Assembly (NCBI RefSeq): GCF_001870905.1 | Contig: NZ_LNDC01000132.1 | Location: forward strand, 1 to 58,404 | Source: Geitlerinema sp. PCC 9228 | GTDB lineage: Bacteria > Cyanobacteriota > Cyanobacteriia > Cyanobacteriales > PCC-9228 | Direction of reading: 5' to 3' | DNA length: 58,404 nucleotides | Shown: positions 10,979 to 40,351 of the stretch, piece after piece | Position numbering within the stretch: the first letter of the stretch is position 1 | Layout: each line of letters begins with the position of its first letter | Position numbers and translations under genes: made by a program | The notes under the pieces: model-generated | What the model saw: only the letters and a program-made list of their open reading frames with translations | What the model was told of the DNA's origin: nothing | Database searches by the model: none

Positions 10979-12114
10979 TCTACCAAATATTGAAACAGGT
11001 CATCGATAACAGCGTTGGCAGCAATCGGTCCTCTGCCAATCCAGTAACCGGGGACTTCGTAGACTTTGCCTGCTTGCACGGCATCCAATTGCGACCACAA
11101 GCGATCGGATTGCAATTTTTGCAAAGCACTTTCGGCTTCGTCGCCCAGCGTCCACACAAAAATAACGTCCCCATCAGCAGCATCGAGGTTTTCTCGGGAT
11201 ACTTCCGACCAAAGGCGGTCTTTGTTTTGAGCGGTAGGGCGAGATAACCCAGCATCTTCGAGAATGCGACCGATAAAGGAGTCTTTTTGATACAGACGCA
11301 CGCGATCGGGAAAAATCCGCACTACAGAAATTTCTAATTTATCTGCTTTTCCGCCCAATTGTTCCCGCAAATTCGCCAAGCGATCGCGGTAGTCTTGCAA
11401 CAGTTGGTCGGCGGCTTCTGGCTTGCCTAAGGTTTTGCCCACCAGTTGTAGTTTATCTTTCCAATTGGAAGAACCACTTTTGCCCAACAAAACCGTTGGT
11501 GCGACCTGAGATAGCAAATCGTAGACCGGTTCTACATTTTTGCCCCCTACAATCAAATCGGGTTTGACAGCGGTAATCTGTTCGATGCTTTGCTGGGTGG
11601 GAGAAAGCTTGGTTACGTCTTTACCTTGCAAGCGATCGCGCAAATGAACCGGAAACTCGCCCGTATTTTCATTGTACAAAGCAGCCACCGGCGTCACTCC
11701 CAACGCCAAAACGCTATCGAGAGCAATATTGTCCAAAGCCACTACTCGCTCTGGTGACTGAGGAACTTGGGTTTTACCAGCGACATGTTGGATCGTGCGC
11801 GTGGGTTGGGTGGTTTCCGTTTGGGAGGATTGCTGGGCATTTTGAGAACTGCCACCATTTGTGGTGAGTGAAGTCGAACCGCAACCGCTGAGGTAAAGAG
11901 AAATAGCGATTAGCAACCCACTAACTAGCCAACTTGGGAATTTATACCAAATCCAAACCGCAATTTTCTTGTAGGGGCAACCCCCCGTGGTTGCCCGGTT
12001 TACCGTTGCTATGGTAGGGGCAGGCACAGGGGCACTGCCTATGGTAGGGGCAGGCACAGGGGCACTGCCCCTACAGTTTCGTGGTCTATATACCTCGGAT
12101 GACCTATTATGCAT
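10975..12114 (-). CDS. Ferrisiderophore-binding lipoprotein (FecB/FepB type)
   Basis: A 379-residue class III binding protein that should carry the ferrisiderophore to the FecCD/FecE transporter at 37-40 kb. The mature domain (from about 100) has RVVALDNIALDSVLALG, KPDLIVGG, ISVVRIFPD and YEVPGYWIGRGP. A lipobox (ISLYLSGC) follows a hydrophobic segment. The first 45 residues or so are odd: they are encoded by a MITE-like repeat (11944-12107) and read SAPVPAPTI twice. I chose the ATG at 12114, which has AAAGGA 8-9 bases upstream. The ATG at 12156 overlaps the receptor gene's stop and is an alternative. No Met lies between the repeat and the signal peptide, so the insertion probably replaced the original start. 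Confidence 0.85.
   Translation of the reverse strand: MHNRSSEVYRPRNCRGSAPVPAPTIGSAPVPAPTIATVNRATTGGCPYKKIAVWIWYKFPSWLVSGLLIAISLYLSGCGSTSLTTNGGSSQNAQQSSQTETTQPTRTIQHVAGKTQVPQSPERVVALDNIALDSVLALGVTPVAALYNENTGEFPVHLRDRLQGKDVTKLSPTQQSIEQITAVKPDLIVGGKNVEPVYDLLSQVAPTVLLGKSGSSNWKDKLQLVGKTLGKPEAADQLLQDYRDRLANLREQLGGKADKLEISVVRIFPDRVRLYQKDSFIGRILEDAGLSRPTAQNKDRLWSEVSRENLDAADGDVIFVWTLGDEAESALQKLQSDRLWSQLDAVQAGKVYEVPGYWIGRGPIAANAVIDDLFQYLVE
11944..12107. mobile_element. MITE-like element inside the 5' end of the lipoprotein gene
   Basis: The element opens with ATACCAAATCC and contains the hairpin GGGCAACCCCCCGTGGTTGCCC at about 11974-11996. It then holds a tandem duplication of a 29-base unit beginning ATGGTAGGGGCAGGC. 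It closes with a partial inverted copy of its opening (reverse strand ATAGGTCATCCGAGG). A related copy with the same hairpin and flanks lies at 32509-32637. It has no coding capacity of its own and presumably depends on a transposase elsewhere. Confidence 0.6.
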
Positions 12115-12149
12115 CAGCCATGTCCTTTCTTCGTTTCTTGCTTCATATC

Positions 12150-14747
12150 TCACCATTGGACGCTGTATTCCAAACTCAACGTGCGACCCAACGCCGCCGA
12201 ATTGCGACTGTTTTCCGACTGCAACTGCGAATCCACCGGGAAATATTGATTGTCCAATAGATTCTGAATGCCAAGTTGGAGGGTTCCCGGTCCCACATCC
12301 ACCTCGCTAATGTAATCTAACGTAATGTAACCATCAATATCGCGATCGTCTACACCATCGTCAAACGCTCTATCGCGACCGCCAACCACCAACAGTTGCA
12401 AGCGATTGCGCCAGCTAGGCAACGTTTGATTATCCACGTAAGCCGTGATTTTCCACGGTTGAATTTCCCGCGTACTCAACGCCACAAATCCTTCATCGGT
12501 GTTTTCGGGATTGCTCTCTCCTTCCACCCAGGTGACGCTGGTTCCTAACTGCCAATCTTGGGAAGGCTGGTAATCCAGACTAACTTCCAAACCATAGGTA
12601 CGAGTGGGAGAACGTTCCAATTCCAAAAATGGTCCTTCATCGCTTTCGCGAACGTTTTCTCCCAAATCGGAATACGTAAAGAACCCAGCCAACGAAAACT
12701 GTACTTGGTCCCAATTGCCTCGTAAGCCCAATTCGTAGTTATCCACCACCACAGGTTCAGTAACATCCACAAACTCGCTCACGCTACCGGCACCTCGCGG
12801 CGGGAAGCGCAAAACACGACCAAAATCCGGTGCCGAAAACCCTTGAGCAAAGTTCGCAAACAAACTTAGTTCTTCGGTCAGGTCGTAGACAGCCCCCACG
12901 TTAAACACCACATCGTCGAAAGCAATGTCGCCACCTTCCACATTTTCCACAGCATTGCCCGCTCTGGTTAAAGCAATATCGCCGAGAACGTTGTAGCTGT
13001 CGGCAAATACCTCAAATCGCTCGAAACGTACGCCACCGCTTAACGAGAGCTTTTGCGTGGCATCCCACTGCAACTGTCCAAACAAGCCCAAGGTATTCAA
13101 ATCGTAAGATGGCGCAAAAAATTCTTCGTCTACCTTATCAAATTCGGTACCACCGCTCTCGTCAAAGGTAGCGGCATTGAAAATTTCGATGGGATTGTCT
13201 ACAGATTCTTCTACGTAATCTGCCCCCCAAAATAAGTTGGCGTCTTCAAATATAGGAGTTTCCACTTCCAAACGGATGCCTAGCTTCTCGGAATCAATTT
13301 CCGTACGGGAAACTGACTGAAAAATCGTATCGCGCTTGTCTTCGGGGATAGTACGGGTGAGCGATTCTTGGAAGAAACCTTGCAAGCTAAATTGACTGCC
13401 CAGCAAATCGTCGTGGCTGTACTTGAGATTGATGACCGTCTCTTCACGACCGGGAAGTTCGTCAATGTCCAAATCTCCCGTATCCAAAGCCCTAGCGGTT
13501 TCCCGTTCTGGGGTTTCGTTGACGCTGGGGTCGGGTAGGGTGGGTACGTCTTGCTTGTCGTCGAAGTAATTGGCTGAAATTTGCAGCCGCTGGTCTTCGG
13601 TAATATCCACACCTACTTTGCCGAATAGGTTGAGGGTTTCTAGATTGTCCAATCCTTGGGAACGACCAATGGGAATTAAGTCGTTGCCGGCATCAAAGGC
13701 ATTCCCCGTCCCTTCAAAAGAGGCTGTGAATGCATAGTCTACAGAACCTAGATCGCCAGAAAGGCTTTGGCTAATCCCGCCACCAAAACTTTCGGATAGG
13801 TCGGATAGAGATAGGCGAGGTCCTAGGGAAATGCTGGTGCTACCTGTTATGCGTTCTCGAGCAGCTTCGCGGGTGATAATGTTAATCACACCACCGGTGG
13901 CATCGGAACCAAAAACGGCTGTTGGTCCGCGAACCACTTCAATGCGTTCGATAGCCGACGGATCGATGCTTCGCAATCCTTGGAAGTCGCGGCGGTTGCT
14001 GTTGAGGGGAACACCATCGACGGAAATAAAAGGCTGGCGACCCCGTAGGGATTGGGTACGTGTAGAAGCACTTTGGGTGGGTGGTCCCAAACCAGGTACT
14101 GTTCTCCCCAGCAAGTCCGGTAAGTTTGTGGAAAGTCCGGATTGCTCTTCAATTTCTTCTCGGGTAATGACTGTGGTGGAACGAGCTACGTCTTCCTCTC
14201 TTTCTTCCGTTCGCGTGGGTGTGACGATCAGCCGGATCGGTTCTCCGGGTTCTGGTTGGGTTTCCGGTTGGGTGGGGAGTTCTTCTGGTTGGGTAGGTGT
14301 TTCCGGTTGGGGTTCGCTTTCCCTGCCTTCTTGAGCAACCGGCGTACCGCTATCAACGGCGAGGGTGAGACGTTCTTGTTGTTCTGTCAGTTGCACGTTG
14401 GGAACTTGCTGGGTGCCCTTCACCAGAATGCGAATGCTGTTTTGATTTTGTTGGATGACTTCAATCGCCGCAATGTTGGCTGTGGGGTTTTGGCGGCGAA
14501 AGCCTTCTGAGGAGTCGCTTTGCAGGCGGGTGTTGAGAATGTCGATGGCGATGGTATTGCCAAATTTGGTTTGAAAGGCGCGTACTTCACCTAGGGGGGA
14601 AGTTTCTAGAACAATTTCCACGCCCTGTTCGGTTTCGTTTAAACGCACGCCAGTGACGGATATGGTTTCCGCAACCGCATTCGGCGCTGCGAGAAAAATT
14701 GTCATGCCGGCGCAAAACCAAGCGATGGAACCGTTGTATTTGTTCAC
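12150..14747 (-). CDS. TonB-dependent siderophore receptor with N-terminal AMIN domain
   Basis: An 865-residue outer-membrane receptor. In order: signal peptide (about 1-26), AMIN domain (about 28-135, SVTGVRLNETEQGVEIVLET), a Pro/Glu/Gln-rich linker (about 140-170), a TonB-box-like stretch (IRLIVTPTRTEE), the plug (about 185-295, with FISVDGVPLN, IERIEVVRGPTAVFG and GGVINIITR), then the beta barrel to the terminal aromatic residue (LSLEYSVQW). AMIN domains bind peptidoglycan or cell-wall polymers and are common in cyanobacterial receptors. It heads the leftward iron operon, and its stop overlaps the possible upstream start of the lipoprotein gene. A Fur-box match lies about 170 bp upstream of the start. 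The ligand is inferred to be the siderophore made by the divergent synthetase genes. Confidence 0.95.
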   Translation of the reverse strand: MNKYNGSIAWFCAGMTIFLAAPNAVAETISVTGVRLNETEQGVEIVLETSPLGEVRAFQTKFGNTIAIDILNTRLQSDSSEGFRRQNPTANIAAIEVIQQNQNSIRILVKGTQQVPNVQLTEQQERLTLAVDSGTPVAQEGRESEPQPETPTQPEELPTQPETQPEPGEPIRLIVTPTRTEEREEDVARSTTVITREEIEEQSGLSTNLPDLLGRTVPGLGPPTQSASTRTQSLRGRQPFISVDGVPLNSNRRDFQGLRSIDPSAIERIEVVRGPTAVFGSDATGGVINIITREAARERITGSTSISLGPRLSLSDLSESFGGGISQSLSGDLGSVDYAFTASFEGTGNAFDAGNDLIPIGRSQGLDNLETLNLFGKVGVDITEDQRLQISANYFDDKQDVPTLPDPSVNETPERETARALDTGDLDIDELPGREETVINLKYSHDDLLGSQFSLQGFFQESLTRTIPEDKRDTIFQSVSRTEIDSEKLGIRLEVETPIFEDANLFWGADYVEESVDNPIEIFNAATFDESGGTEFDKVDEEFFAPSYDLNTLGLFGQLQWDATQKLSLSGGVRFERFEVFADSYNVLGDIALTRAGNAVENVEGGDIAFDDVVFNVGAVYDLTEELSLFANFAQGFSAPDFGRVLRFPPRGAGSVSEFVDVTEPVVVDNYELGLRGNWDQVQFSLAGFFTYSDLGENVRESDEGPFLELERSPTRTYGLEVSLDYQPSQDWQLGTSVTWVEGESNPENTDEGFVALSTREIQPWKITAYVDNQTLPSWRNRLQLLVVGGRDRAFDDGVDDRDIDGYITLDYISEVDVGPGTLQLGIQNLLDNQYFPVDSQLQSENSRNSAALGRTLSLEYSVQW

Positions 14748-15311: not shown

Positions 15312-18300
15312 ATGAACGGTAAGTACAGCAACAATCCATGCCATTTTTCGCTATCGACACCGCGCCCCACGGGGAATCTCAGGGCAATGCCAGCTCGGAG
15401 TCTTACTACTTGGGTCGATCTAATGCAATATAGGGCACAAAAGCATCCCCACCGCCTGGCGTATATCTTTCTTGAGGATGGAGAAACCGAAACCGAACGG
15501 TGGACTTACGCAGAGCTAAACCAACGCGCCCAAGCGATCGCAGCCCATTTACAAAAGGTTGCTCCCATGGGAGCGAGGGCTTTGCTGTTGCACCCGCAAG
15601 GGATTGAATACATTGCTGCCTTTTTGGGATGTTTGTATGCCGGTATTATTGCTGTTGGCGCTTATCCGCCGCGACGCAACCAACATCTATCGCGATTAAA
15701 AGCGATCGCCAACAATTCCAATGCCAGTCTTGCCCTGACTGTAGCGACCCAACAAGCAGACTTGCAAGCCAGATGCGCACAAGAACCAGAATTTCCCTCC
15801 TTGCATTGGCTGGCTACCGATACCATCGCCACAACCCAAGCCAGTCAATGGCAGGCACCACTGACATTGAGCGAAGCCGAACCCCCCATCCGTAAAGATA
15901 CGCCGGCGTTTCTGCAATATACTTCGGGTTCTACAGGAACCCCGAAAGGTGTCATGGTCACCCACGAAAACCTACTGGATAACGAACGTATTATCCAACA
16001 AGCCTTCCAAAGCTCCGAAAGTACTCGTGTTGTGAGTTGGTTGCCTCTGTTCCACGATATGGGGTTGGTGGGAAGTGCCTTACAAAGCCTATACATAGGC
16101 GGACAGTGCATTTTGTTTTCGCCAGTCGCTTTTCTGCAAAAGCCGGTACGCTGGTTGCAAGCCATCCATCGCTACCGCGCTACTGCCAGTGGGGCACCCA
16201 ACTTTGCCTACGACTTGTGCGTGCGCCAAATTTCTCCCCAGCAAACGAGAGCGTTAGATCTGAGCTGTTGGGAACTAGCTTTCAACGGAGCCGAACCCAT
16301 CCGCGCCCAAACCTTACAAAAGTTTGCCGAGACCTTTGCCAAATGCCATTTTCGCAAGTCCGCTTTTTACTGTTGCTACGGCATGGCGGAAACAACGCTG
16401 CTGGTATCTGGAGCAGAGAAAGAAAGTTTACCCGTTGTTCGGCAGGTAGACCAGCGTTCCCTGCAAGCCAACTGCGTTCGACCTCCCGAAAGTTCCGAAA
16501 GTGCCAAAGAGGTGGTCAGCTCTGGAAAACCCCGCTTGGATGGCCAAGTAGCGATTGTCGATCCTGTTTCTCACACGCAATGTGCTGCCGATGGCGTTGG
16601 CGAAATTTGGGTAGCTGGCAGCAGCGTGGCGCAAGGATATTGGCAGCGACCCACCGAAACCGAAGAAACGTTCCGTGCCTTTCTAGCGGATACGGGAGAA
16701 GGACCTTTTCTGCGCACTGGAGACTTGGGATTTATACAAGACGGCGAACTCTTCGTAGTCGGTCGCTTGAAAGATACCATCGTCATTCGCGGTCTCAATT
16801 ACTATCCCCAAGATATTGAGCTGACCGTGGAACCAAGCCATCCGGCGCTGCGAGATGGTTGTGGGGCAGCTGTTTGTGTGGATATAGAAGGCGAATCCCA
16901 ACTGGTTATCGTACAGGAAGTGGAAAGGCGGTTTCTGCGGAACTTACCCGTAACGGAGATTGTACGGGCGATTTGTCGTGCGGTGGCTGCGGAACACGAG
17001 CTGCAAGTCTATGCGATCGCGTTACTCAAAACAGCCAGCCTGCCCAAAACCTCCAGCGGCAAAATCCAGCGCCGTGCTGCCCGGGAAGGATTTCTCGCGC
17101 AAAGCTTATCGGAAGTAGCGCGTTGGTATCGTTCCCAAGGGTTCGGCGATGCCAACTCGGAAGATACGCAAGCCGATTTGTACATACGCCGTCACATAAG
17201 CGAAGTTTTGGGCGTGCCACTGTCAGAATTGCAAAACGGACAGCAAGGGCTTTTGGAACTGGGGCTTGACTCGGTCAGTTCGGTAGAGTTGCGCAACAGC
17301 CTGCAAACCAGCTTTCAAGTAACACTACCCGCTACTCTAACCCTGGAATATCCCACCATTGACGATTTAATTGCTTACCTCAAACAGCAAATCGAAAAGG
17401 ACAGCCCATCGCAACGCTCTGCGTCGAGCGAGGTCGAAACGCCTGCCAATACCTCTATGACACAACTGCCAGAAGCCATTGCCAATCTTTCCAGTAGCGA
17501 AAAGCGATCGCTGCTCAAAAGATTGCTCCAAAAACAGATCGATGAAAACCGAACCTTTCCCCTTTCTTTTCCGCAACAGCGATTGTGGTTTCTCCACCAA
17601 CTGGAACCGGACAACCACGCTTATAATATTCCGGTTGCGGCTCGCTTGCATGGGAATCTCGATGCCGTTGCCTTAGAAAAAGCCCTCCAGGAAATCCTGC
17701 GAAGGCACGAAGTTCTGCGTACCCGATTTGACACCAACGAACGGGGAGAACCGGTACAAATTATCGAACCAGAAGCCTCCCTGTCGCTTCCCGTTATTGA
17801 CCTGCGCCAACAGCAAGCACCAGAAAGTCTTATCGAGGAATACACCACCAAAGAGGCGCAGCAACCTTTTGACTTGCAGCAAGCGCCCTTGGTGCGTGCC
17901 AAGTTGTTACGAGTGAGCGATACCGAACATGTGGTTTTGCTTACCTTACATCATATTGTCGCCGATGGCTGGTCCATGGGCATCTTGGTACGGGAAATGG
18001 CTGCCCTGTACGAATCATTTTCCCAGCAAACCACACCTTCTTTGCCAGAACTTCCCATTCAGTATGTCGATTACGCCGTTTGGCAGCGACAACACCTGCA
18101 AGGGGAAGCTTTGGAATCGTTGCTTGCCTACTGGCGGCAGCATCTCGGGGGCAATCCGCCGACCTTGCAGCTACCCAGCGATCGCAATCCCCAACAAGTA
18201 TCCTCAGAACAACAGCAAGGGGCGACCCTGCCCATGTCCGTAAGCGCGGACCTCTTGTCTCAATTGGAAAAAGTGGCTGCTAGTGAAGGTGTCACCTTAT

Positions 18301-20024
18301 TTATGTCCTTGCTAGCTGCTTTCAAAACCCTGCTTTATTGTTACTCGGGGCAGGAAGATATCTTGGTAGGCACCGATGTAGCCAATCGCCAGCGCGCTGA
18401 AACTGAGGACTTAATTGGATTTTTCGTTAACTTGGTGCCTTTGCGAACCGATATGTCCGGGCAACCCAGCTTTCGGACCTTGCTGCAAAGAATACGCCAA
18501 GTGGCATTGGGGGCTTACGCACACCAGGAATTGCCCTTTGAAAAACTGGTGGAGGAATTGCAGCCGGAACGCCAAGCCGGGGAAACGCCCCTAGTGCGAT
18601 CGCTGTTTGTCCTACAAAACACGCCAATGCCAGAGTTTCAAACCTCACAATCTTCGGGCAACGCCGGGCAAGGTTTAACCATGAGTTCGGTGGAAGTCAA
18701 CGACCAAACCTCTAAATTCGACCTCAGTCTTTTTGTGGGGAAAAAACAAGGGAACTTGGTGGGCAATTGGCGATATCGCACCGATTTATTTTCCCAAAAT
18801 CGAATAGAGCAATTGTCCCAAAATTTTGTGGCTTTGCTAGAGAAAATTGTTACCCATCCCGACACACGATTGCATCAGTTCGCTAGGTCAATTCAACCCA
18901 ATCAAATGTCTGCTTCTTCTTTTCCATCCAAAAAATCAAAAACCAAACAGAAAAAACCACGTTTGTCCCGAGGCAAATTCCAAAAAATCCAACCCCAAGC
19001 GATCGCGTCTCGCGGCGAAGATTTGGTCCAAGCCAGTTACCTTCCCCACTTGCAGGAAAGGGCTTTTCCCTTGGTTTTGCAACCCAATTTTGCCGAAGTC
19101 GATTTAGCAGAATGGGCGCAGCAAAATCGCTCTTATTTAGAACAAGAACTGTTCCAACACGGTGCCATTCTCTTTCGTAACTTTCATACTCAATCCGTAG
19201 AAAAATTTGAAAAGGTAGCCAGTGCCATTTGCCCCCATTTATTTGGCGATTATGGCGATTTGCCCAGACAGGATATTAGCGATCGCGTTTACGGTTCTAC
19301 CCCCTATCCCGCCGATCGTTCGATTCTGTTTCACAACGAAAGTTCGCACATGCATTGCTGGCCGCGCAAAATCTTTTTCTGCTGCTTGCAACCCGCTTCC
19401 CAAGGAGGCGCTACGCCCATTGTTGATTGCCGCCGAATTTATCAAAAAATAGACCCGCAAATCCGGGAAAAATTCGAACAAAAAGGCTTAATGTACGCGC
19501 GCAATTACCGTCAGGATATGGATGTTAGCTGGCAAGAATTTTTCCACACCGACGACCCTTCCCAAGTAGAAGAATATTGTCACCGCGCTGGCATTGAATT
19601 TAAGTGGAAAGAAGACAATTGTTTGTTTACGCAGCAACAAGGACCGGGGGTCATCCAACATCCAGAAACTGGCGAGAAAAGTTTCTTCAATCAAGTGCAG
19701 TTGCACCATATTGCCTGTTTGGAATCGGAAACGCGGGATTCTTTACTTTCCCTGTTCGATCTTCCCAATTTGCCGCGCCATGTTTTTTACGGCGATGGAA
19801 CGGCAATAGCCGACGAAGATGTGGCTGCCATTCGGGATTTGTACGAACAAGAAGCCTGCCGTTTCCAGTGGCAAGCTGGCGATATTTTAATGCTAGATAA
19901 TATGCTAGCTGCCCACGGACGCGATCCCTATGCTGGAGAACGCAAAATTGTCGTTGCTATGGGCGATATGACCTACAAGCAAGATGTTTGCCCGGCTGCT
20001 GCCAATGGCGTTGTTCAAAAATAA
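15312..20024 (+). CDS. NRPS loading protein: FAAL-ACP-C-TauD (beta-hydroxylase)
   Basis: A 1570-residue multidomain enzyme that starts the lipopeptide. FAAL (about 35-610) activates a fatty acid as acyl-AMP (QYTSGSTGTPKG near 203, LRTGDLGF near 467, KTSSGKIQRR near 580). The ACP (about 620-700) has its phosphopantetheine Ser in LELGLDSVSS near 652. The condensation domain (about 750-1180) has an intact HHIVADG near 879. After a basic linker (KKSKTKQKKPRLSRGK) a TauD/clavaminate-synthase-like 2OG-Fe(II) oxygenase fills about 1230-1560, with the iron ligands HNE near 1342 and AAHGRDP near 1533 and the oxoglutarate Arg in ERKIVV. Such domains beta-hydroxylate carrier-bound aspartate in siderophore NRPSs. 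The start could instead be the Met at 15387, since homology begins shortly after it. Confidence 0.93.
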   Translation: MNGKYSNNPCHFSLSTPRPTGNLRAMPARSLTTWVDLMQYRAQKHPHRLAYIFLEDGETETERWTYAELNQRAQAIAAHLQKVAPMGARALLLHPQGIEYIAAFLGCLYAGIIAVGAYPPRRNQHLSRLKAIANNSNASLALTVATQQADLQARCAQEPEFPSLHWLATDTIATTQASQWQAPLTLSEAEPPIRKDTPAFLQYTSGSTGTPKGVMVTHENLLDNERIIQQAFQSSESTRVVSWLPLFHDMGLVGSALQSLYIGGQCILFSPVAFLQKPVRWLQAIHRYRATASGAPNFAYDLCVRQISPQQTRALDLSCWELAFNGAEPIRAQTLQKFAETFAKCHFRKSAFYCCYGMAETTLLVSGAEKESLPVVRQVDQRSLQANCVRPPESSESAKEVVSSGKPRLDGQVAIVDPVSHTQCAADGVGEIWVAGSSVAQGYWQRPTETEETFRAFLADTGEGPFLRTGDLGFIQDGELFVVGRLKDTIVIRGLNYYPQDIELTVEPSHPALRDGCGAAVCVDIEGESQLVIVQEVERRFLRNLPVTEIVRAICRAVAAEHELQVYAIALLKTASLPKTSSGKIQRRAAREGFLAQSLSEVARWYRSQGFGDANSEDTQADLYIRRHISEVLGVPLSELQNGQQGLLELGLDSVSSVELRNSLQTSFQVTLPATLTLEYPTIDDLIAYLKQQIEKDSPSQRSASSEVETPANTSMTQLPEAIANLSSSEKRSLLKRLLQKQIDENRTFPLSFPQQRLWFLHQLEPDNHAYNIPVAARLHGNLDAVALEKALQEILRRHEVLRTRFDTNERGEPVQIIEPEASLSLPVIDLRQQQAPESLIEEYTTKEAQQPFDLQQAPLVRAKLLRVSDTEHVVLLTLHHIVADGWSMGILVREMAALYESFSQQTTPSLPELPIQYVDYAVWQRQHLQGEALESLLAYWRQHLGGNPPTLQLPSDRNPQQVSSEQQQGATLPMSVSADLLSQLEKVAASEGVTLFMSLLAAFKTLLYCYSGQEDILVGTDVANRQRAETEDLIGFFVNLVPLRTDMSGQPSFRTLLQRIRQVALGAYAHQELPFEKLVEELQPERQAGETPLVRSLFVLQNTPMPEFQTSQSSGNAGQGLTMSSVEVNDQTSKFDLSLFVGKKQGNLVGNWRYRTDLFSQNRIEQLSQNFVALLEKIVTHPDTRLHQFARSIQPNQMSASSFPSKKSKTKQKKPRLSRGKFQKIQPQAIASRGEDLVQASYLPHLQERAFPLVLQPNFAEVDLAEWAQQNRSYLEQELFQHGAILFRNFHTQSVEKFEKVASAICPHLFGDYGDLPRQDISDRVYGSTPYPADRSILFHNESSHMHCWPRKIFFCCLQPASQGGATPIVDCRRIYQKIDPQIREKFEQKGLMYARNYRQDMDVSWQEFFHTDDPSQVEEYCHRAGIEFKWKEDNCLFTQQQGPGVIQHPETGEKSFFNQVQLHHIACLESETRDSLLSLFDLPNLPRHVFYGDGTAIADEDVAAIRDLYEQEACRFQWQAGDILMLDNMLAAHGRDPYAGERKIVVAMGDMTYKQDVCPAAANGVVQK

Positions 20025-20108
20025 CGAACGGATATTCTTTTTCCCAAGGGGTTTGGGAAATAACGACTTTTGGACAAAATTGATGATTCCTACAAGAGAG
20101 ACGTAACT

Positions 20109-23100
20109 ATGCTAGCCGAAGAAACCATTCAAGGATATGCCCTGTCGCCACAACAAAAACGTCTTTGGGATTGGCAACAGCAACAAAATACAAATTTCCG
20201 GGCCAAATGCCTGGTTTCCATCAGCGGAAATCTCGATCGCGATCGCCTTTATGCCAGTATCCAATCTCTTTGCGATCGCCACGAAATCCTCCGTAGCACA
20301 TTTCAGCGCCATGTCGGGATGCAATATCCCTTACAGGTGGTTTCCGAACACGCCACGTTTGACTGGGAAGTACGGGATTTACAGGAATTGAATCCCGAGC
20401 AGCAACAGGCTCAAATCGAGCAAATTGCCAACGCCCCAGCTAGCCCCAGGGAAAATCCCTTACAGGTATGGTTGTTGCCCACCGCACCAGAGAAATCTTT
20501 CCTTTTGCTCAGCTTACCAGCACTCTGTGCCGATCGCACAACCTTCAATATTTTGCTTGCCGAACTGAGCGATTTGTATGCTACTGGCGGCGAAAATATT
20601 CTGCCAGAATCAGAAATCGTTCAATACAGTCAAGTTTCTCAATGGCAATACGAAGTCCTTTCCGAGTTTAAAGCAGAAACAGGCGAGGAATTCTGGCAGC
20701 CCAGCAATCTGGAACGGTATAGTACACCGGAGATTCCCACTTGTACTGAGCCTGGCGCTGAGCTGAGTCGAAGCGTGCGTCAAAAAAGTCAGGAAAGCTG
20801 CGATCGCTACTCCCTTCACTTAGAACCGGAATTGCTAGAAAAGTTAGAACAGGCAGCCCAAAACTATGACAATTCCCTAGAGGATTGGCTGTTTGCTGCT
20901 TGGCAAACACTTTTGTGGCGCGTCGGCGGTTCCGGAGAGCGCTCCCTGCTTACTGTTTACGGCAGCGACGGCCGACCTTACGAGGACTTAGATAACACAG
21001 CGGGATTGCTAGCCAAATGGCTACCGGTTCCCATTACCCTCGATGGTAGCTGGCCGTTTTCCCAAGTGCTGGAATATGTTGGAGATGCCCAAGAACAGGT
21101 ACTGGGTTGGCAAGATTATATCGTTGCTGGTGCTACGCCTCTAGCCAGCCCCAATTCTTTGCCAGTTGGTTTTGAGTTTCTAGAACAGCCTTCTTTTTCT
21201 GCTTGCAACCTCACATTTGACATCCAACGCATCGAAACCACCAGCGATCGCTTCCAGCTTTGTCTATCCTGCCATCGCCATGCCGAGGGTCTGGATTTCG
21301 TTTTCCATTACAATGCGACTACCTACGCCGAAGCCACCATTGCCCGTCTGAGCCGTCATTGGCGAACCCTGCTAGAAAGCACGGTAGAAGCGCCAGATCG
21401 AAACATCGACCGACTATCCCTGCTCGACGATCGCGATCGCGAACAACTGCTTGTCGAATTCAACCAAACTCAACGAGACTTTCCCACAAATAAATGCTTG
21501 CACGAGCTTTTTGAAGAGCAAGTAGAACGCTGTCGCGATCGCATAGCCCTGCAATTCGAGCAAGAACAACTTACCTATGCAGAACTGAACCAACGCGCCA
21601 ACCAACTAGCCCACCACCTGCAGCAAGAATTTGGGGTGGGACCGGACACCCTGGTTGCCATTGGTTTGGAACGTTCCGCCCACAGCATTGTGGCCCTACT
21701 GGGCATTCTCAAAGCTGGCGGTGCCTACGTACCCGTGGACCCGGGCATGCCCCAACAACGCCGACAACGAATGCTGGCGGAAGCCAACCCAGTTGCGATC
21801 GTAACCCAGCAATCCTTGCAAAACCTATGGGAAGAACAAGAAAGTCCCATCATTTGTATCGACACCAAATACACCAATAGCACGGAGGAGTCTCTCCCCA
21901 ATCCCACCCACCGCACAACCAGCGATTCCCTTGCCTACGTTATCTTCACTTCGGGGTCCAGCGGTCAACCTAAAGGCGTAGCTGTGGAACACCGGCAAGT
22001 TCTCAATTATGTATATGGCATCAGCGATCGCCTGTCGCTGCCCGATAGGGCGACCTACGCCACGGTTTCCACCCTAGCTGCCGATTTGGGCAATACAGCT
22101 GTTTTCCCTGCCCTGTGTGGCGGTGGCTGCTTGCACGTTTTGTCGGGCGATCGCTTAGCCGATCCGCAAGCTTTTGCCGAGTATTGCACCTCCCACAGGA
22201 TTGACTGCCTGAAAATGACCCCTTCCCACCTGGCGGCGTTGGTTGCCGATGAAGATAGTGCCCAATTTCCCCGCTGCCGCCATCTCATTCTTGGTGGCGA
22301 ATCCCTAGGTTGGGAACTTATCCGAAAGATTCGACATCTAGCCCCCGATTGTCAAATTTGGAATCACTACGGTCCCACAGAAACCACCATTGGTGTTCTC
22401 ACTTATAAAGTAGAAGCAGAACTCACAACACCCACCGTGCCCTTGGGTCGTCCCCTGCCCAACGTGGAAACTTACTTGCTGGATAAATACATGCAGCCAG
22501 TACCTCTGGGGATTCCCGGAGAACTCTACATCGGCGGCGCTAGTGTTGCCCGGGGGTATCTCCACCAACCAGAACTAACCCAACAGCGATTTGCGAATCA
22601 TCCTTTCCGTTCTGAGGGAAGACTGTACAAAACCGGCGATATGGCTCGCTATCTGGAAGGCGGCAACCTAGAATTTTTGGGACGCAACGACCATCAAGTA
22701 AAAATTCGCGGTTTTCGGATCGAACTGGCAGAAGTGGAAGCCGTTGTGTCCCAACATCCCCAGGTGCGGGAAGTTGCCGTTACGACCCATCAAAGCGATG
22801 GTGCCTCTGGCACCGGTTCTTCGGACCATGGCGGCGAGACGGAACTGGCTGCCTACATTGCCCTCAAAGAGCAACAAGCAGATACCGTACGGCAGGTACG
22901 GAAATTTGTCCGGGAGCGATTGCCGGGGTACATGGTTCCCACCACCTTTTCTACCCTGAACGCCCTACCGCGAACGCCCAGCGGCAAAATTGACCGTCAA
23001 TCCCTACCCGAACCAACACCAGAAACGGAAGAAACCAGTTCGATGGCACCGCGTACCCAGGTGGAAACCCAATTGGTAGAGATTTGGCAAGAGATTTTGC

Positions 23101-23336
23101 AAACCGACAATATCGGCATTCAAGCGAACTTTTTCGATTTGGGGGGGCATTCCTTGCTTGCCACTCAAGTAATATCGCGGGTACGAAATGCTTTTGGGGT
23201 GGATGTTCCCCTGCGATCGCTGTTTGAATCGCCAACGATTGCCGATTTAGCGGTTTTGGTGGAACAAGCGCTTGCCGAACAAGTGGACGAAACAGAACTA
23301 TCGCAATGGCTGGCGGAAATTGAAGCGGATTCGTAG
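20109..23336 (+). CDS. NRPS module: C-like interface domain, A (Asp), PCP
   Basis: A 1075-residue module. The N-terminal condensation-like domain (about 1-440) lacks HHxxxDG; the equivalent stretch is LPALCADRTT near 135, so it should not form peptide bonds. It fits the interface domains that recruit aspartate beta-hydroxylases. The A domain (about 460-960) has FTSGSSGQPKG near 613 and RTPSGKIDR. Reading its specificity residues against GrsA gives D-L-T-K-I-G-H-I-G-K, one position from the Asp code DLTKVGHIGK. The PCP Ser is in DLGGHSLLATQ near 1013. The start chosen is the ATG at 20109, with AGAGAG upstream; a TTG at 20070 is in frame. It lies 84 bp after the FAAL-NRPS gene. Confidence 0.93.
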   Translation: MLAEETIQGYALSPQQKRLWDWQQQQNTNFRAKCLVSISGNLDRDRLYASIQSLCDRHEILRSTFQRHVGMQYPLQVVSEHATFDWEVRDLQELNPEQQQAQIEQIANAPASPRENPLQVWLLPTAPEKSFLLLSLPALCADRTTFNILLAELSDLYATGGENILPESEIVQYSQVSQWQYEVLSEFKAETGEEFWQPSNLERYSTPEIPTCTEPGAELSRSVRQKSQESCDRYSLHLEPELLEKLEQAAQNYDNSLEDWLFAAWQTLLWRVGGSGERSLLTVYGSDGRPYEDLDNTAGLLAKWLPVPITLDGSWPFSQVLEYVGDAQEQVLGWQDYIVAGATPLASPNSLPVGFEFLEQPSFSACNLTFDIQRIETTSDRFQLCLSCHRHAEGLDFVFHYNATTYAEATIARLSRHWRTLLESTVEAPDRNIDRLSLLDDRDREQLLVEFNQTQRDFPTNKCLHELFEEQVERCRDRIALQFEQEQLTYAELNQRANQLAHHLQQEFGVGPDTLVAIGLERSAHSIVALLGILKAGGAYVPVDPGMPQQRRQRMLAEANPVAIVTQQSLQNLWEEQESPIICIDTKYTNSTEESLPNPTHRTTSDSLAYVIFTSGSSGQPKGVAVEHRQVLNYVYGISDRLSLPDRATYATVSTLAADLGNTAVFPALCGGGCLHVLSGDRLADPQAFAEYCTSHRIDCLKMTPSHLAALVADEDSAQFPRCRHLILGGESLGWELIRKIRHLAPDCQIWNHYGPTETTIGVLTYKVEAELTTPTVPLGRPLPNVETYLLDKYMQPVPLGIPGELYIGGASVARGYLHQPELTQQRFANHPFRSEGRLYKTGDMARYLEGGNLEFLGRNDHQVKIRGFRIELAEVEAVVSQHPQVREVAVTTHQSDGASGTGSSDHGGETELAAYIALKEQQADTVRQVRKFVRERLPGYMVPTTFSTLNALPRTPSGKIDRQSLPEPTPETEETSSMAPRTQVETQLVEIWQEILQTDNIGIQANFFDLGGHSLLATQVISRVRNAFGVDVPLRSLFESPTIADLAVLVEQALAEQVDETELSQWLAEIEADS
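20740..20775 (-). repeat. CTTCGAC...CTCAGTACAAG-type repeat, in frame in NRPS
   Basis: On the reverse strand this reads as two adjacent half units, GCTTCGACTCAGCTCAGC and CAGGCTCAGTACAAG. It is translated as CTEPGAELSRS within the interface domain of the Asp module. It belongs to a family of 12 copies seen between 20.7 and 32.2 kb. Confidence 0.65.
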
Positions 23337-23338
23337 TG

Positions 23339-23438
23339 ATACCAAATCCTGCTTAGACTGAAGAACCCCCTGTAGTCCCCCTTAGTAAGGGGGACGGTTC
23401 AGGTTACGTTTGTGATTTAGCAATATCAGATTTGGTAT
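23339..23438. mobile_element. MITE-like element between NRPS genes
   Basis: A 100-bp element bounded by the perfect 10-bp inverted repeat ATACCAAATC / GATTTGGTAT (23339-23348 and 23429-23438). It contains the perfect palindrome GTCCCCCTTA-G-TAAGGGGGAC at 23375-23395. A 38-base internal segment (23360-23397) is identical to an in-frame segment of the PKS gene at 31065-31102. It starts 3 bp after the stop of the Asp module and could act as a transcript hairpin. Confidence 0.65.
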
Positions 23439-23497
23439 GAGATTCTCCGAAACGTTCCTATTTTGCCAACCCTCACATCAGCAACCTCGATGATATT

Positions 23498-26400
23498 ATG
23501 AGCGACCTTGCCAAACGAATTGCAGCTTTATCCCCCGAACAGCGGGAAAAACTGCTGCAAAAACTTTCCCAATCCCAATCAAAATCGTCCGATACAACTC
23601 AATCGCCTAGCGTTGAGGGCAGTCAAGATGCACCAGTTTCGCAAACGGGAGAAACGGTATTTCCCCTATCTGCTGCCCAACAGCGCCTGTGGTTTTTGGA
23701 ACAACTGGTGGGAGAAAGTCCTTTCTACAACGTTCCTGGGGCTGTGGAAATTCAAGGACAACTAGACGCAAATATCTTGCAGCGCTGTTTTAGCGAAACG
23801 ATCCGCCGCCACCAGGTATTGCGTACCCGATTTGCCAAGCAAAATGGCGAACCGGTCCAGATTGTCGATCCCCCTTTTCAACTGGAAATGCCAGTGGTGG
23901 ATTTGCAGCAGACGGATTCTGCTTGTAAAGAGGAAAAAGCCCAACAATTGGCGCGAGAAGAAGCGGAAAAGCCTTTCGATCTGACAAAATCGCCTCTTTT
24001 GCGGACCAAGCTACTGCATTTGGAACGCGATCGCTACCTGTTGGTGTTTATCTCCCATCATATTATCTCCGATGCGTGGTCCCGTACGGTGATGCTGCGA
24101 GAGCTGACGACTTTGTACCAAGCCTTTTCCCAGCAGCAGCCTTTCTCCTGCGGAGACGCTTCGCGAACGCCGTTGCCGGAACTTTCCGTGCAATACGTGG
24201 ATTTTGCTGTACGGCAAAACCAGTGGCTGCAAGGGGAAACCATGCAAAAACAACTGGATTACTGGCAGCAAAAATTGCATCCTTTACCACCAGTTTTGGA
24301 GTTGCCCTTCGCCCATCCCCGTCCCCAACAGCAAAGCTATCGCGGGGCACAGCATCAGTTAGTCGTAGAACCGGAATTGATGGCCTCTCTGCGATCGCTT
24401 GCCCGGCAGCACAATGCCACGCCCTACGTGGTGTTGCTAGCAGCATTCCAAACGCTGCTGTACCGCTATACTGGGGAAACAGATATTGCCGTCGGGTCAC
24501 CCATTGCCAACCGCAACCATGCTGCTTACGAGCAGTTAATCGGCTTTTTTGCCAACACGTTGGTGCTGCGTTCCGATTTATCCGGCGATCCGACATTTTC
24601 AGAACTGCTCGACCGGGTACGCGAGACCGCCCTCGATGCTTATTCCAACCAGGATTTGCCCTTCGAGAAACTGGTAGAAGTTCTACAACCGCAGCGAGAT
24701 ACCAGCCATTCTCCCTTATTTCAAGTTCTATTTGCCTTTCACGATATGCCGGTTTTGCCGGAAATTCCAGGATTGAGCTTCAAACTGTGGGATTTGGATA
24801 CGGCCACAGCCAAATTCGACCTCAGCTTGCTTTTGCGTGTGGACGAACAAAACCGGGGCATTATTACTTTAGAATACAATACCGATTTATTCGACTCAGA
24901 AACCATCGAACGCTTGGCCACCCACTGGCAAACGCTCTTAACCGATATTGCCAAGCAACCGTCGCAACCCATTTCGCAACTGTCTTTGCTGCCACCAGCC
25001 GAGCGACAGCAAGTTTTGCAAACCTTCCAAGCCACCGAAGTTGACTATCCAGAAACGCCCGTTCACCAGTTGTTTGTCGAACAGGTTGCCCAAACCCCCA
25101 CGCGCGAAGCGGTATCTTTGGGAGAACAAACCCTCACCTATCAAACCCTCTACCAAAAAGCCAACCAACTAGCCCGCAAACTGCGATCGCTAGGCGTAGG
25201 ACCGGAGACCCAAGTCGGCATTTGTCTGAGCGTTTCTCCAGAAATTTATGCCCAAAGGTCGGAAGCTTGGTTGCCAGTGGCTGTTTTGGGCGTCCTTTTG
25301 GCTGGCGGTGCCTACGTTCCCCTAGATCCCAACCTGCCTCAAGCACGTTTGGCTTATATGAGCGAGAACGCACAGGTCAAAATTGTCCTCACCCACGAGC
25401 ATTTGCAAGCCAGGCTGCCCGATGGTTGTACGACTTTATGTTTGGATACCGACTCGGATGAGATTGCCAAGTATAGCGATGCTCCTTTAGAACCGCTGGC
25501 AACCCCTGGTGTTGACCGAACTGGTGCTGAGCCGCGTCGAAGCAGCCGAAACGTCGATAACCTGGCATACATCATTTATACATCCGGTTCCACCGGACAA
25601 CCCAAGGGCGTGGCTATGACCCACCGTCCCCTCAACAACTTGATTCGCTTCCAGAGGCAAATCTCTCGCCTCCAGCAGCAAGGGGCACGTACCTTGCAGT
25701 TTGCAGCGTTCAGTTTTGACGTATTTTTCCAAGAGCTTTTTGCCACTTGGAGTGCCGGCGGAACGTTGGTTCTGATGCCAGATGAAGCCCGTCGCGACCC
25801 CAATCGCTGGTTGGAGCTAATGGTGCAAGAACGAGTCGAACGGGTCTTTTTGCCATTCGTCGCCCTATCGCAACTGGCTCAAGCCGCCCAACGTCGCGGA
25901 AAAATTCCCCAATCCTTACAAGAGATCGTTACAGCCGGGGAACAACTACAAATTACCCCTGCGATCGCGCGTTTTTTGGAAGCCTTGCCCAATTGCCGAT
26001 TGCAAAATCAATACGGTCCTTCCGAAACCCACGTGGTCGCCACCTACACATTGTCAGGAAAACCCAATTCCTGGCCCAAGCTACCGCCTATCGGTCGTCC
26101 CATTGCCAACGCCAAACTGTACGTTCTCGACGAGAACTTGCAACCGGTTCCCATTGGCGTTCCCGGAGAACTGTGCGTCGGCGGTGTTTCCCTGGCGCGG
26201 GGATATTTCCGCAACCAACAGCAAACGGACGAACGTTTCATTACCAATCCCTTTGTAGCCGAACAGCACAAGCCACGTTTGTACAGAACCGGCGATCGCG
26301 CTCGCTTTCTCAGCGACGGCAACATCGAGTTTTTGGGACGCAACGACCGTCAAGTCAAACTCCGGGGATTTCGCTTGGAACTAGCAGAAGTAGAAGCGGC

Positions 26401-27115
26401 TTTGACCCAACATCCTCAAATTCGCGAAGCAGCGGTAGGGGTGCTTCGCGAAGCACCCGTACGGGATGATGGTACGGGCAAGCGTTTGGTCGCCTATATC
26501 GTTTGCTTCGACAAAGCTCAGCACAAGCCGCATAGTTCAAATTCAGACAATAACTGGCAGATGCTTCGGCAGGACTCAGCACAAGTGCTTCAACCAAGCT
26601 CAGTACAAGCTTTTTTGCGATCGCTACTGCCCGAGTATGCCATTCCTTCCCAATTTGTGGAATTAGAAGCTTTACCCACCACCCCCAGTGGCAAAATCGA
26701 CCGGCGTTCCTTACCCGAACCCCAACCCCAACACACCAACACCTCTGCTTCGACAAAGCTCAGCACAAGCAGCAGCTACGTTGCTCCTAGAAACGACCTG
26801 GAATCGGACATTGCCCAGATGTGGCAGGAAATTTTGCAATGCGATCGCGTAGGCATCAACGACAACTTTTTCGACCTCGGCGGTCATTCCTTGCTCATCG
26901 TGCAATTGGGCGATCGCTTGTCCGAGTATCTACAACAGGAAATTCCGCTCGTCAAGCTATTTCAGTATCCCACCATCGCCAGCTTTGTGGAATATCTAAA
27001 TTCTGCAAACAACAGCCCAACCAACCAGCAATCCCATCGCTCTACCAGACGCCAAAGAGCCCAAAACCGAACTGCCAACCTGCAGCAGCAACGAAAACGG
27101 CGACAGCGGCGGTGA
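23498..27115 (+). CDS. NRPS module C-A-PCP, substrate uncertain
   Basis: A 1205-residue module. The condensation domain (about 50-470) has SHHIISDAWS near 186: the catalytic His and Asp are present, and the usual Gly after Asp is Ala. The A domain (about 500-1060) has YTSGSTGQPKG near 693 and TTPSGKIDR. My reading of the specificity residues is D-V-Q-F-V-A-Q-V-V-K. This shares DVQ and VVK with proline codes but differs enough that the substrate stays open. The PCP Ser is in DLGGHSLLIVQ near 1128. The protein ends in an Arg-rich tail (TRRQRAQNRT, QQQRKRRQRR) that may dock to the PKS. Several dispersed repeats are translated in its A domain and A-PCP linker, and one palindrome gives VLREAP. It lies 161 bp after the Asp module. 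Confidence 0.9.
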   Translation: MSDLAKRIAALSPEQREKLLQKLSQSQSKSSDTTQSPSVEGSQDAPVSQTGETVFPLSAAQQRLWFLEQLVGESPFYNVPGAVEIQGQLDANILQRCFSETIRRHQVLRTRFAKQNGEPVQIVDPPFQLEMPVVDLQQTDSACKEEKAQQLAREEAEKPFDLTKSPLLRTKLLHLERDRYLLVFISHHIISDAWSRTVMLRELTTLYQAFSQQQPFSCGDASRTPLPELSVQYVDFAVRQNQWLQGETMQKQLDYWQQKLHPLPPVLELPFAHPRPQQQSYRGAQHQLVVEPELMASLRSLARQHNATPYVVLLAAFQTLLYRYTGETDIAVGSPIANRNHAAYEQLIGFFANTLVLRSDLSGDPTFSELLDRVRETALDAYSNQDLPFEKLVEVLQPQRDTSHSPLFQVLFAFHDMPVLPEIPGLSFKLWDLDTATAKFDLSLLLRVDEQNRGIITLEYNTDLFDSETIERLATHWQTLLTDIAKQPSQPISQLSLLPPAERQQVLQTFQATEVDYPETPVHQLFVEQVAQTPTREAVSLGEQTLTYQTLYQKANQLARKLRSLGVGPETQVGICLSVSPEIYAQRSEAWLPVAVLGVLLAGGAYVPLDPNLPQARLAYMSENAQVKIVLTHEHLQARLPDGCTTLCLDTDSDEIAKYSDAPLEPLATPGVDRTGAEPRRSSRNVDNLAYIIYTSGSTGQPKGVAMTHRPLNNLIRFQRQISRLQQQGARTLQFAAFSFDVFFQELFATWSAGGTLVLMPDEARRDPNRWLELMVQERVERVFLPFVALSQLAQAAQRRGKIPQSLQEIVTAGEQLQITPAIARFLEALPNCRLQNQYGPSETHVVATYTLSGKPNSWPKLPPIGRPIANAKLYVLDENLQPVPIGVPGELCVGGVSLARGYFRNQQQTDERFITNPFVAEQHKPRLYRTGDRARFLSDGNIEFLGRNDRQVKLRGFRLELAEVEAALTQHPQIREAAVGVLREAPVRDDGTGKRLVAYIVCFDKAQHKPHSSNSDNNWQMLRQDSAQVLQPSSVQAFLRSLLPEYAIPSQFVELEALPTTPSGKIDRRSLPEPQPQHTNTSASTKLSTSSSYVAPRNDLESDIAQMWQEILQCDRVGINDNFFDLGGHSLLIVQLGDRLSEYLQQEIPLVKLFQYPTIASFVEYLNSANNSPTNQQSHRSTRRQRAQNRTANLQQQRKRRQRR
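25521..25543 (-). repeat. GCTTCGAC-type repeat, in frame in NRPS A domain
   Basis: A reverse-orientation copy of the dispersed repeat (reverse strand GCTTCGACGCGGCTCAGCA). It is translated as TGAEPRRSS in a loop just before the ATP-binding motif YTSGSTGQPKG. Confidence 0.6.
26435..26462. repeat. GTAGGGG palindrome, in frame in NRPS A domain
   Basis: The palindromic core GGGTGCTTCGCGAAGCACCC is translated as VGVLREAP in the C-terminal subdomain of the A domain. It is related to the palindromes at 27168, 29318, 30697 and 32406. Confidence 0.6.
26505..26609 (+). repeat. Three GCTTCGAC-type repeats, in frame in NRPS A domain
   Basis: Copies lie at 26505-26527, 26563-26585 and 26587-26609. They read variants of GCTTCGACAAAGCTCAGC plus ACAAG. 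Because they sit in different reading frames they give CFDKAQHKP, LRQDSAQVL and LQPSSVQA. Together they expand the C-terminal part of the A domain before the SGKIDR motif. Confidence 0.7.
26747..26769 (+). repeat. GCTTCGAC-type repeat, in frame in the A-PCP linker
   Basis: A copy of GCTTCGACAAAGCTCAGC plus ACAAG, translated as ASTKLSTS, in the linker between the A domain and the carrier protein. Confidence 0.7.
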
Positions 27116-27123
27116 TTTTAATT

Positions 27124-27155
27124 GGGAGGGAGAGGGGGAGGAGTGGGAGAGGGGG
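27124..27155 (+). other. G-quadruplex-capable G-rich run upstream of the PKS
   Basis: Five runs of three or more G separated by 1 to 6 bases (GGGAGGGAGAGGGGGAGG, then GAGTGGGAGAGGGGG) lie between the NRPS stop and the PKS start, about 110 bp before the PKS ATG. Whether it folds in DNA or mRNA is untested. Confidence 0.45.
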
Positions 27156-27167
27156 CACCCTTCGGCA

Positions 27168-27194
27168 GTAGGGGGTTTCGCGAAACGCCCCTAC
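27168..27194. repeat. GTAGGGG palindrome between NRPS and PKS
   Basis: A 27-base palindromic repeat with core GGGTTTCGCGAAACGCCC, of the same family as the palindromes inside the coding regions. It lies in the 148-bp gap between the third NRPS gene and the PKS gene. Confidence 0.55.
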
Positions 27195-27263
27195 TCAGGG
27201 CAAGTCGGCGCATCGGCGCATGGGGCTTCAAAGAAAACAATCGATCGTACTTGGTAAAAAATT

Positions 27264-30200
27264 ATGGAAAACACAAACAACGATATCGCGATCGTAGGCA
27301 TGACGGGCAGATTTCCTGGTGCCCGTTCGGTAGAGGAATTCTGGCAAAATTTGCGCGATGGTGTGGAATCCATCGAGTCTTTGAGCGAAGAACAACTGCA
27401 AGCGGCTGGCATCGCGCGCGAAACCTACAACCAGCCGAACTACGTTAAAGCAGCTCCCATTCTCAAAAACGATATTGCCGAATTTGATGCCTCGTTTTTT
27501 GGGTTGAGTCCTCGGGAAGCGGAACTGCTCGACCCCCAACAGCGATTCTTTTTAGAAGGCGCTTGGGAAGCGATGGAAAATGCCGGGTACAATCCACAAG
27601 ACTGCGGGTTGCGAGCGGGCATTTATGCTGGTGTAGGGCGGAATACGTACCTGTTGTTCAACGTCTATCCCAACCGCGATACCATCGATACGGCGGGGGC
27701 GTTTGCTACCCTCATTAGCAACGATAAAGATTTCCTTGCCACCCGCGTTGCCTATTTTCTTAATTTCAAAGGGGCAAGTATCACCGTACAAACCGCTTGT
27801 TCTACGTCTTTGGTAGCAACGCATTTGGCTTGCCAGAGCCTGTTGAGCGGCGAAAACGATTTGGTGTTGGCGGGGGGTGTTTCCCTGAAGGTGCCACATA
27901 CGGCTGGGTACGTTTACCAAGAAGGTGGGATTTATTCACCGGATGGGCACTGTCGCAGTTTCGATGCCCATGCCCAAGGAACGGTGGGTGGCAGCGGTAT
28001 GGGCATTGTGGTGTTAAAACGTTTGGAAGATGCGATCGCGGATGGAGATACCATTCGCGGGGTTATTAAAGGGTCTGCCACCAACAACGATGGTGCTGTA
28101 AAAGTGGGATACACGGCTCCCAGCGTGACGGGGCAAGCGGATGTCATTGAAGAGGCGCTGTGCGTGGCGGATATCCATCCGGAAACCATTCAATACGTGG
28201 AAACCCACGGTACGGCAACACCGTTAGGCGACCCCATTGAAATCCAAGCTCTCACTTCGGCATTTCGTTCCAGTACCCAGAAAACAGGTTGGTGTGCCAT
28301 TGGTTCGGTAAAAAGCAATGTGGGACATTTGGATACGGCAGCTGGTGTGGCAGGTCTAATCAAAACTGTGTTGGCATTGGAAAACCAACAAATTCCTCCT
28401 TCGTTGCATTGGGAACAACCCAATCCCCAAATTGATTTTGACAGTACCCCTTTCTTTGTCAATACGAAGCTACAAGATTGGCAGCGGTTCGACTCCAATG
28501 GCAGCCAGCAGGGGGAAACGCCGCGACGTGCAGGGGTTAGTTCCTTTGGCATCGGCGGTACCAACGCCCACGTCATTGTGGAAGAAGCACCCAAAACTTC
28601 CCCTGCTGCTACTTCCAGACCCCAACAACTATTGCTGCTTTCCACCAAAACCAAAACGGCTCTGGAAACGGCGACGACGAATTTAAAAACCTATCTGGAA
28701 CAACAGAAACCAGACAACTTAGCTGACGTTGCCTATACACTACAAATCGGACGCCAGCATTTTTCCTATCGCCGTGCCATCGTCTGCGAAAACAATACGG
28801 CTGCCGCTGTAGAAGTTCTATCGTCGGGAACATTCGTAACTACAGGATACTGCGAAACCAGCGATCGCCCGGTATGTTTTATGTTTCCCGGTCAAGGTTC
28901 CCAATATGCCAACATGGGAAGGCAGTTGTACGAACGCGAACCCGTCTATCGCCAGTCGATCGATCGCAGTGCCGAGTTGTTCGCTCCCTATCTCGATCTG
29001 GATATTCGCGATATTTTGTATGCCGATGCTTCTACAGAGGACCATCAAGAACAACTTACCCATACCGCGATCGCGCAATGTGTTTTGTTTGCTGTCGAGT
29101 ATGCTTTGGCACAACTGTGGCTTTCGATGGGTATTCAACCGAAAGCAGCCATTGGACATAGCATTGGCGAATACGTGGCGGCTTGTCTGGCAGGGGTGTT
29201 TGACCTAGAAGATGCTCATGCGTTAGTTGCCCAACGGGGCAAGCTGATGGAACAAGCACCCACCGGCAGCATGTTGAGCGTAGGGCTACCGGCAGCAGAG
29301 CTAGAACCCATGCTTGGTGGGGCAGGCACGGGGGCGCTTCGCGAAGCGCCCCTACAGTATACGGTGGCAGCCATCAATGCTCCCTCTTTGTGTGTTGTTT
29401 CTGGAGAAGAAAATGCGATCGCGCGTTTGCAATCGACCCTAGAGGCACGCGGAGTGGTTTGTCGCCCCCTCCACGTTCGTCATGCCTTTCATTCTCCTAG
29501 CATGAACGCCGCTGCCGAACAATTCGCTGCTATTGTAGAACGGACTTCCCTCCATCCCCCGCATTTACCTTTTATTTCCAATGTCACCGGCACTTGGATT
29601 ACCGAAGCGCAAGCCACCGACCCCCACTATTGGGCGCAACACATCCGCCAACCCGTACGTTTTGCCGATGGTGCTGCCGAACTGATGCGCTGCTTCGACC
29701 AAGCTCAGCACAAGCAAGCAATTCTGTTGGAAGTGGGACCGGGGAGAACCCTGCAAACGCTAGTCCGACTTGCAGCGAGCGAAACCGAACCGCAGCAGCT
29801 TCAGGATGATGCCGAACCTGTGGTTCTTACTTCCATGCGCCATCCCCAACAACCAACCAATGATACCCACCACCTGCTTGCAACCCTAGGGCAACTGTGG
29901 CGTTATGGGGTTACCATTGATTGGCAAGGCTTTTACCAGCAAGAAAAGCGTCGCCGCATTCCGCTACCCACCTATCCTTTTGAACGGCAGCGTTACTGGA
30001 TCGATCCGCCTAGCAAATCTTCCCAAGACCGGCAGCCAGAATCTACAACCAGCGAGGAGTTGCAACAGAGAAATCCTTTTGACGAATGGTTCTATACACC
30101 CACGTGGAAGCGTTTGCCTCGACGTAGTACAGCACAAACTGTATTGGCTGCCTCTCCGACAACTGCAACCAGCAATGCCGGAACCCACTGGCTGGTATTT

Positions 30201-33520: not shown

Positions 33521-35647
<2,127 letters not shown>

Positions 35648-37801: not shown

Positions 37802-37813
37802 AGTTTTGCTCGA

Positions 37814-39940: not shown

Positions 39941-40351
39941 TTATTCTTCCGATTCCGATTCTGTCGCGATCGCGAGTTGCAAGCCATCCACGCGCCGCAA
40001 ACGATCCATCACCCGCACCACCCGACCGTGAGCCACTTGTTCGTCAGCATTCACAATGGCCAACTTTTTTGTACCAGATTCAATTTCCTTACGCACGGTG
40101 GGCAAAAGTTGCTCCATCTCCACAGACGTTTTGTTTACAGAAAGGGTACCATCGGCAGCAATGGTAATGTAAATTTCGCTGGAACTTTGCGACTCGCCAG
40201 TAGAAGCCTCCGGTAAGTTCACCGGCAATCCTTCCGACCGAGTTAAGAACAAGGTAGAAATCACGAAAAACGCCAAAATCGAGAAAATAATATCAATAGC
40301 TGGCACAATATTAATTCCAGCAGGGCGATCGGGTTCCTCATTGAGACGCAT
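39941..40351 (-). CDS. exbD: ExbD-type biopolymer transport protein
   Basis: A 136-residue ExbD protein. It has a short cytoplasmic N-terminus (MRLNEEPDRPAGINIVPAID), one membrane helix (IDIIFSILAFFVISTLFLT) containing the essential Asp at its start, and a periplasmic domain ending in GRVVRVMDRLRRVDG. With ExbB it uses the proton gradient to drive TonB. Its start lies 14 bp inside the exbB gene, so the two are translationally coupled. The C-terminus is acidic (ESESEE). Confidence 0.93.
   Translation of the reverse strand: MRLNEEPDRPAGINIVPAIDIIFSILAFFVISTLFLTRSEGLPVNLPEASTGESQSSSEIYITIAADGTLSVNKTSVEMEQLLPTVRKEIESGTKKLAIVNADEQVAHGRVVRVMDRLRRVDGLQLAIATESESEE

Follow-up and report, generated by a model that had tools for sequence, protein, structure and literature searches.

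We compared the window, the whole 58,404-nucleotide stretch of Geitlerinema sp. PCC 9228 DNA analyzed here, to siderophore assembly lines that have already been described. The cyanochelin B plasmid of Leptolyngbya sp. NIES-3755 (AP017310.1) was taken as the reference, since the structure of its product is known from NMR (PMC12628792). There, CcsFGH ends in a condensation (C) domain followed by a TauD domain, and CcsI consists of a catalytically dead C-like domain with the sequence LPALCADTKS, an adenylation (A) domain with the specificity code DLTKIGHVGK and a thiolation (T) domain, with no E domain. NMR places β-hydroxyaspartate (β-OH-Asp) at the CcsI position of cyanochelin B (PMC12628792). 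In the potashchelin system of Halomonas sp. MG34, PtcB and PtcC follow the order FAAL-ACP-C-TauD-C-A(Asp)-PCP (PMC7100376). The IβH_Asp interface class of Reitz et al. (2019), as cited in PMC12971057 and PMC12230676, has an Asp module opened by a non-catalytic C homologue and a hydroxylase as the last, fused domain of the preceding NRPS. Cyanobacterial hydroxylase clades CyanoBH_Asp1 and 2 have been described (PMC12971057), and antiSMASH 8 carries interface-domain profiles and flags C domains without catalytic residues (PMC12230676). X domains of glycopeptide NRPSs (4tx3, 6m7l) again have a non-catalytic condensation fold and act as oxygenase recruiters.

The window contains a closely similar arrangement. 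An NRPS gene on the forward strand (20109-23336) starts with an ATG read directly at 20109, is open throughout and ends with its stop at 23336; translation could alternatively start at a TTG at 20070. Its product matches the Pfam families Condensation, AMP-binding, AMP-binding_C and PP-binding, and comprises an interface-like, catalytically dead condensation-fold domain (20124-21446), an A domain (21495-23054) and a T domain (23055-23276), without an E domain. The preceding gene on the same strand (15312-20024) encodes, by Pfam, a protein with a FAAL (about 15417-17114), an ACP (17166-17396), an active C domain (17544-18908) and a TauD-type aspartyl β-hydroxylase domain (19062-19991). The C domain carries HHIVADG; the active condensation domain does lie on the previous protein, as an earlier note made from the DNA letters had stated. 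The TauD domain retains the HNE motif and the distal His characteristic of Fe(II)/2-oxoglutarate enzymes, and the hydroxylase sits with cyanobacterial relatives tentatively called CyanoBH_Asp1/2 (PMC12971057). The domain order is identical to that of potashchelin (PMC7100376), and both the dead C homologue opening the Asp module and the fusion of the hydroxylase to the NRPS before it are shared with the IβH_Asp systems. X domains match the dead domain in fold but recruit P450 Oxy enzymes and are located at the end of the line. Because the potashchelin order, the CyanoBH_Asp clades and the antiSMASH 8 interface profiles have already been described, the gene is a further example of a known interface-domain/hydroxylase arrangement, which is standard in siderophore clusters.

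The remainder of the assembly line is where the window departs from these systems. Downstream on the forward strand lie a C-A-T module (23498-27115) whose C domain reads HHIISDA, a PKS module of composition KS-AT-KR-ACP (27264-32357) and a stand-alone thioesterase (36172-36969) that is likely involved in release or editing. The A domain of the C-A-T module (25058-26758) has the code DVQFVAQVVK (DVQFIAQV-K in a related MAG), which is proline-like but allows no confident assignment, Gln replacing the His that is usual in Pro domains. The whole synthetase (15312-32357) appears to consist of FAAL-ACP followed by three modules, one each for β-OH-Asp, for a proline-like residue and for a PKS step. 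Cyanochelin B has a longer line, a second β-OH-Asp module and a stand-alone hydroxylase, whereas the window has a single β-OH-Asp module and a FAAL start directly before C-TauD. Two β-OH-Asp modules of the cyanochelin B kind are not found: the whole genome holds one TauD domain, three C domains and one modular KS, all in this cluster. The potashchelin line, too, is longer: another eight amino-acid modules follow, and a second hydroxylase stands alone, compared with a single additional NRPS module and a single PKS module in the window. At its end, the PKS protein has a charged tail (32240-32357) that resembles a docking region; a genome-wide search for a line to receive it found neither a further C domain nor a further modular KS. 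No MbtH partner was found in the genome.

Gene order is conserved in the related MAG QS_4_48_99 (G159; L142, L143), in which the NRPS/PKS pieces are about 47-69% identical to those of the window. Among cyanobacterial relatives that have interface domains, the majority carry two or more β-OH-Asp modules, and the line common to the window and QS_4_48_99, which appears to make a single β-hydroxyaspartate, is mildly unusual. We put at about even the chance that both encode a minimal cyanochelin-like line, built from a fatty acid, one β-OH-Asp, a proline-like residue and a reduced malonate unit. If so, this would be a short, undescribed siderophore scaffold, in which the interface domain partners the only hydroxylase of the line.

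A β-OH-Asp-containing lipopeptide need not be a siderophore. Turnercyclamycin, for example, has no siderophore role (PMC12971057), and a single β-OH-Asp module would provide few chelating groups. The surroundings of the core speak against such a product here. On one side, all on the reverse strand, are genes for an MFS exporter that is EntS-like at low score (9623-10978), a ferric-siderophore periplasmic binding protein (10975-12156) and a TonB-dependent siderophore receptor with an AMIN domain (12150-14747). On the other side are a ferric-siderophore ABC importer with an ATPase and two FecCD permeases (36980-39922, reverse strand), ExbD and ExbB (39941-41015, reverse strand) and a TonB-like protein (41288-42382, forward strand). 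The receptor and the binding protein hold their position in QS_4_48_99. We thus regard a non-siderophore lipopeptide as improbable. NRPS and PKS modules, an NRPS-fused Asp β-hydroxylase, a FAAL start and iron-transport genes are all present, as in a cyanochelin-type siderophore cluster. An Fe2+-dependent dioxygenase of the YbiX/PKHD type (32661-33329, reverse strand) is probably an uptake accessory and not the Asp hydroxylase. Between the receptor and the NRPS genes, a search for a Fur box returned only matches with three mismatches, not above chance. The protein at 33521-35602 consists of RTX nonapeptide and collagen-like repeats, and similar repeats adjoin the receptor in the related MAG.

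The identity of the activated residue was assessed from the A domain. Mapping onto GrsA yields the ten-residue Asp code DLTKIGHIGK, the same code that the earlier note had read by hand. Activation of another residue, which would have spoken against that reading, is not what the code predicts. The isoleucine at position 299, which the note had counted as a change from valine, is indeed there, but it is no deviation: Ile is the commonest residue at this position in the family (52 of 66 codes), and it also occurs in the Asp modules of cyanochelin B. At one surveyed locus (L005:3071-6340), an interface-like domain with LPALCGD precedes an A domain with the code DATKVGEVGK, which is nearer to Asn than to Asp codes.

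We next consider how regularly hydroxylase and dead domain occur together. The sample consisted of the 80 nearest relatives of the window's hydroxylase domain, drawn from one genome per species across 84,980 species. Seventy-five of the 80 are fused behind a C domain. A dead C-like domain follows in all 71 fused cases with readable downstream sequence, and HHxxxDG is kept in none of them. All 66 readable A codes conform to DLTK[IVL]GH[VI]GK, seven of them being DLTKIGHIGK itself. Pairing is the rule in this hydroxylase family, the 80 loci being nearest relatives and not an unbiased sample from which universality would follow. The reverse search, starting from the dead domain in 292 cyanobacterial genomes, separated interface-like domains (at least 380 bits) from ordinary C domains (below 280 bits), and a hydroxylase lies immediately upstream in all ten of the top cyanobacterial dead-domain loci parsed, the window included. 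C-TauD followed by a dead C domain is also found on plasmids of Leptolyngbya boryana, Nostoc, Gloeothece and Trichormus; Variovorax, Janthinobacterium, Eleftheria and Azospirillum show it too, their dead domains being more diverged. The division between two polypeptides, to which the earlier note had drawn attention, is present but hardly noteworthy, as it is shared by the 71 of 71 readable cases, cyanochelin B and potashchelin. The fused hydroxylase is not the sole partner, as the dead domain also follows stand-alone enzymes in cyanochelin B and others; cyanobacterial examples are L004:2797-5151, L005:1999-4414 and L008:10129-13332. The proteobacterial stand-alone hydroxylases of Vibrio harveyi and Azospirillum sp. 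B510 were excluded as interface cases, as an active C domain (HHIAGD) comes next.

The dead domain itself is clearly set apart from catalytic C domains. Its Pfam Condensation score is 171.7 bits, compared with 419.5 and 386.3 bits for the C domains of the preceding and following proteins, respectively. In a MAFFT alignment, LPALCADRTT (20514-20543, forward strand) falls exactly over HHxxxDG, where the earlier note had placed it, with HHIVADG of the upstream C domain paired to PALCADR. Both histidines of the motif are absent, and the subsequent, structural Asp is retained. The replacement motif and the Asp code are not a chance combination, because dozens of species carry the two together. A first phylogeny, of 85 C-superfamily domains, gathers the 26 dead ones into one group (SH-aLRT 99) that excludes all 59 others. 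A smaller, more careful tree recovers interface, LCL, DCL and E domains as one group each, with bootstrap 99 and SH-aLRT 96 for the interface group; the LCL, DCL and E labels are our own, assigned from motif, position and the first tree and not by an external classifier. Both other C domains of the window are placed among the LCL rows, and the dead domain belongs to a distinct clade made up of dead C-like domains, which includes homologues from the cyanochelin B cluster and from Pseudomonadota. Grouping with active LCL or DCL domains, which the earlier note had named as the outcome that would tell against its reading, is thus not observed.

An AlphaFold2 model of the dead domain, computed with 55 homologues, has a mean pLDDT of 89.7. 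It is predicted to adopt a condensation fold, with Foldseek E values down to 6.8e-33 and VIA-align Z scores up to 38 at 2.7-4.2 Å, and the matches include the X domains of glycopeptide synthetases. Sequence relatives in the PDB are C-superfamily domains and general TauD-type enzymes, none of them annotated as an interface domain or NRPS Asp hydroxylase. The predicted fold speaks against a decayed remnant, a shared fold not being in itself an indication of function. Loss of both catalytic histidines could be expected of a vestigial C domain left behind by a module fusion and drifting without a role, and the domain does evolve faster than its neighbors, with 45% identity to its closest relative versus 71% for the adjacent hydroxylase. 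Its reading frame is nevertheless intact and its fold confidently predicted, the replacement motif is conserved across phyla, as are many other columns, and the domain co-occurs with the hydroxylase in nearly all parsed cases, making a vestigial origin very unlikely. That the domain condenses non-canonically, giving the module two working C domains, has least to commend it and seems barely credible, as the C fold and structural Asp are retained but both histidines are replaced in every homologue, an active C domain already precedes it, and none of the LCL, DCL and E clades includes it. An interface domain is instead indicated by the lost HHxxxDG histidines, a clade of its own and an adjacent Fe(II)/2-oxoglutarate β-hydroxylase fused to the preceding NRPS. 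This fusion to the C terminus of the previous protein strengthens the assignment, and the proposal that the C-like domain is the partner of an aspartate β-hydroxylase is supported, with a putative recruiting role for the domain.

It is thus very likely that the gene encodes the Asp module of a cyanochelin-type lipopeptide siderophore line, whose N-terminal, non-condensing interface domain presents T-bound Asp to the hydroxylase of the preceding protein. The domain order, the lost histidines, the intact hydroxylase triad, the Asp code, the intact predicted C fold, the clade and the one-to-one co-occurrence with the hydroxylase were all computed here. By analogy with cyanochelin B, it is well supported that the 20109-23336 module makes β-hydroxyaspartate. 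We infer that the dead domain physically recruits the hydroxylase; to our knowledge, the recruiting role of interface domains is an inference in the literature as well. In the proposed sequence of events, the A domain would load L-Asp, and the interface domain would dock the upstream hydroxylase onto Asp-S-T. By the rule published for enzymes fused to NRPSs, the β-OH-Asp formed would be L-threo, and the active C domain upstream would then couple it to the fatty acid activated by the FAAL. Chain extension would follow on the next module and the PKS, and the product may finally return ferric iron to the cell via the neighboring TonB and Fec-type genes. The stereochemistry is disputed: fused enzymes have been reported to give the 3S, L-threo product (PMC12628792), whereas the variochelin paper assigns erythro to an embedded enzyme (PMC10999976).

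The locus provides a clean cyanobacterial example of an interface domain paired with its hydroxylase. In several phyla, the missing histidines, an Asp code and a fused hydroxylase occur as a set, which aids the prediction of photoreactive β-hydroxyaspartate siderophores from sequence. Being small, the line could be well suited to probing interface-domain function.
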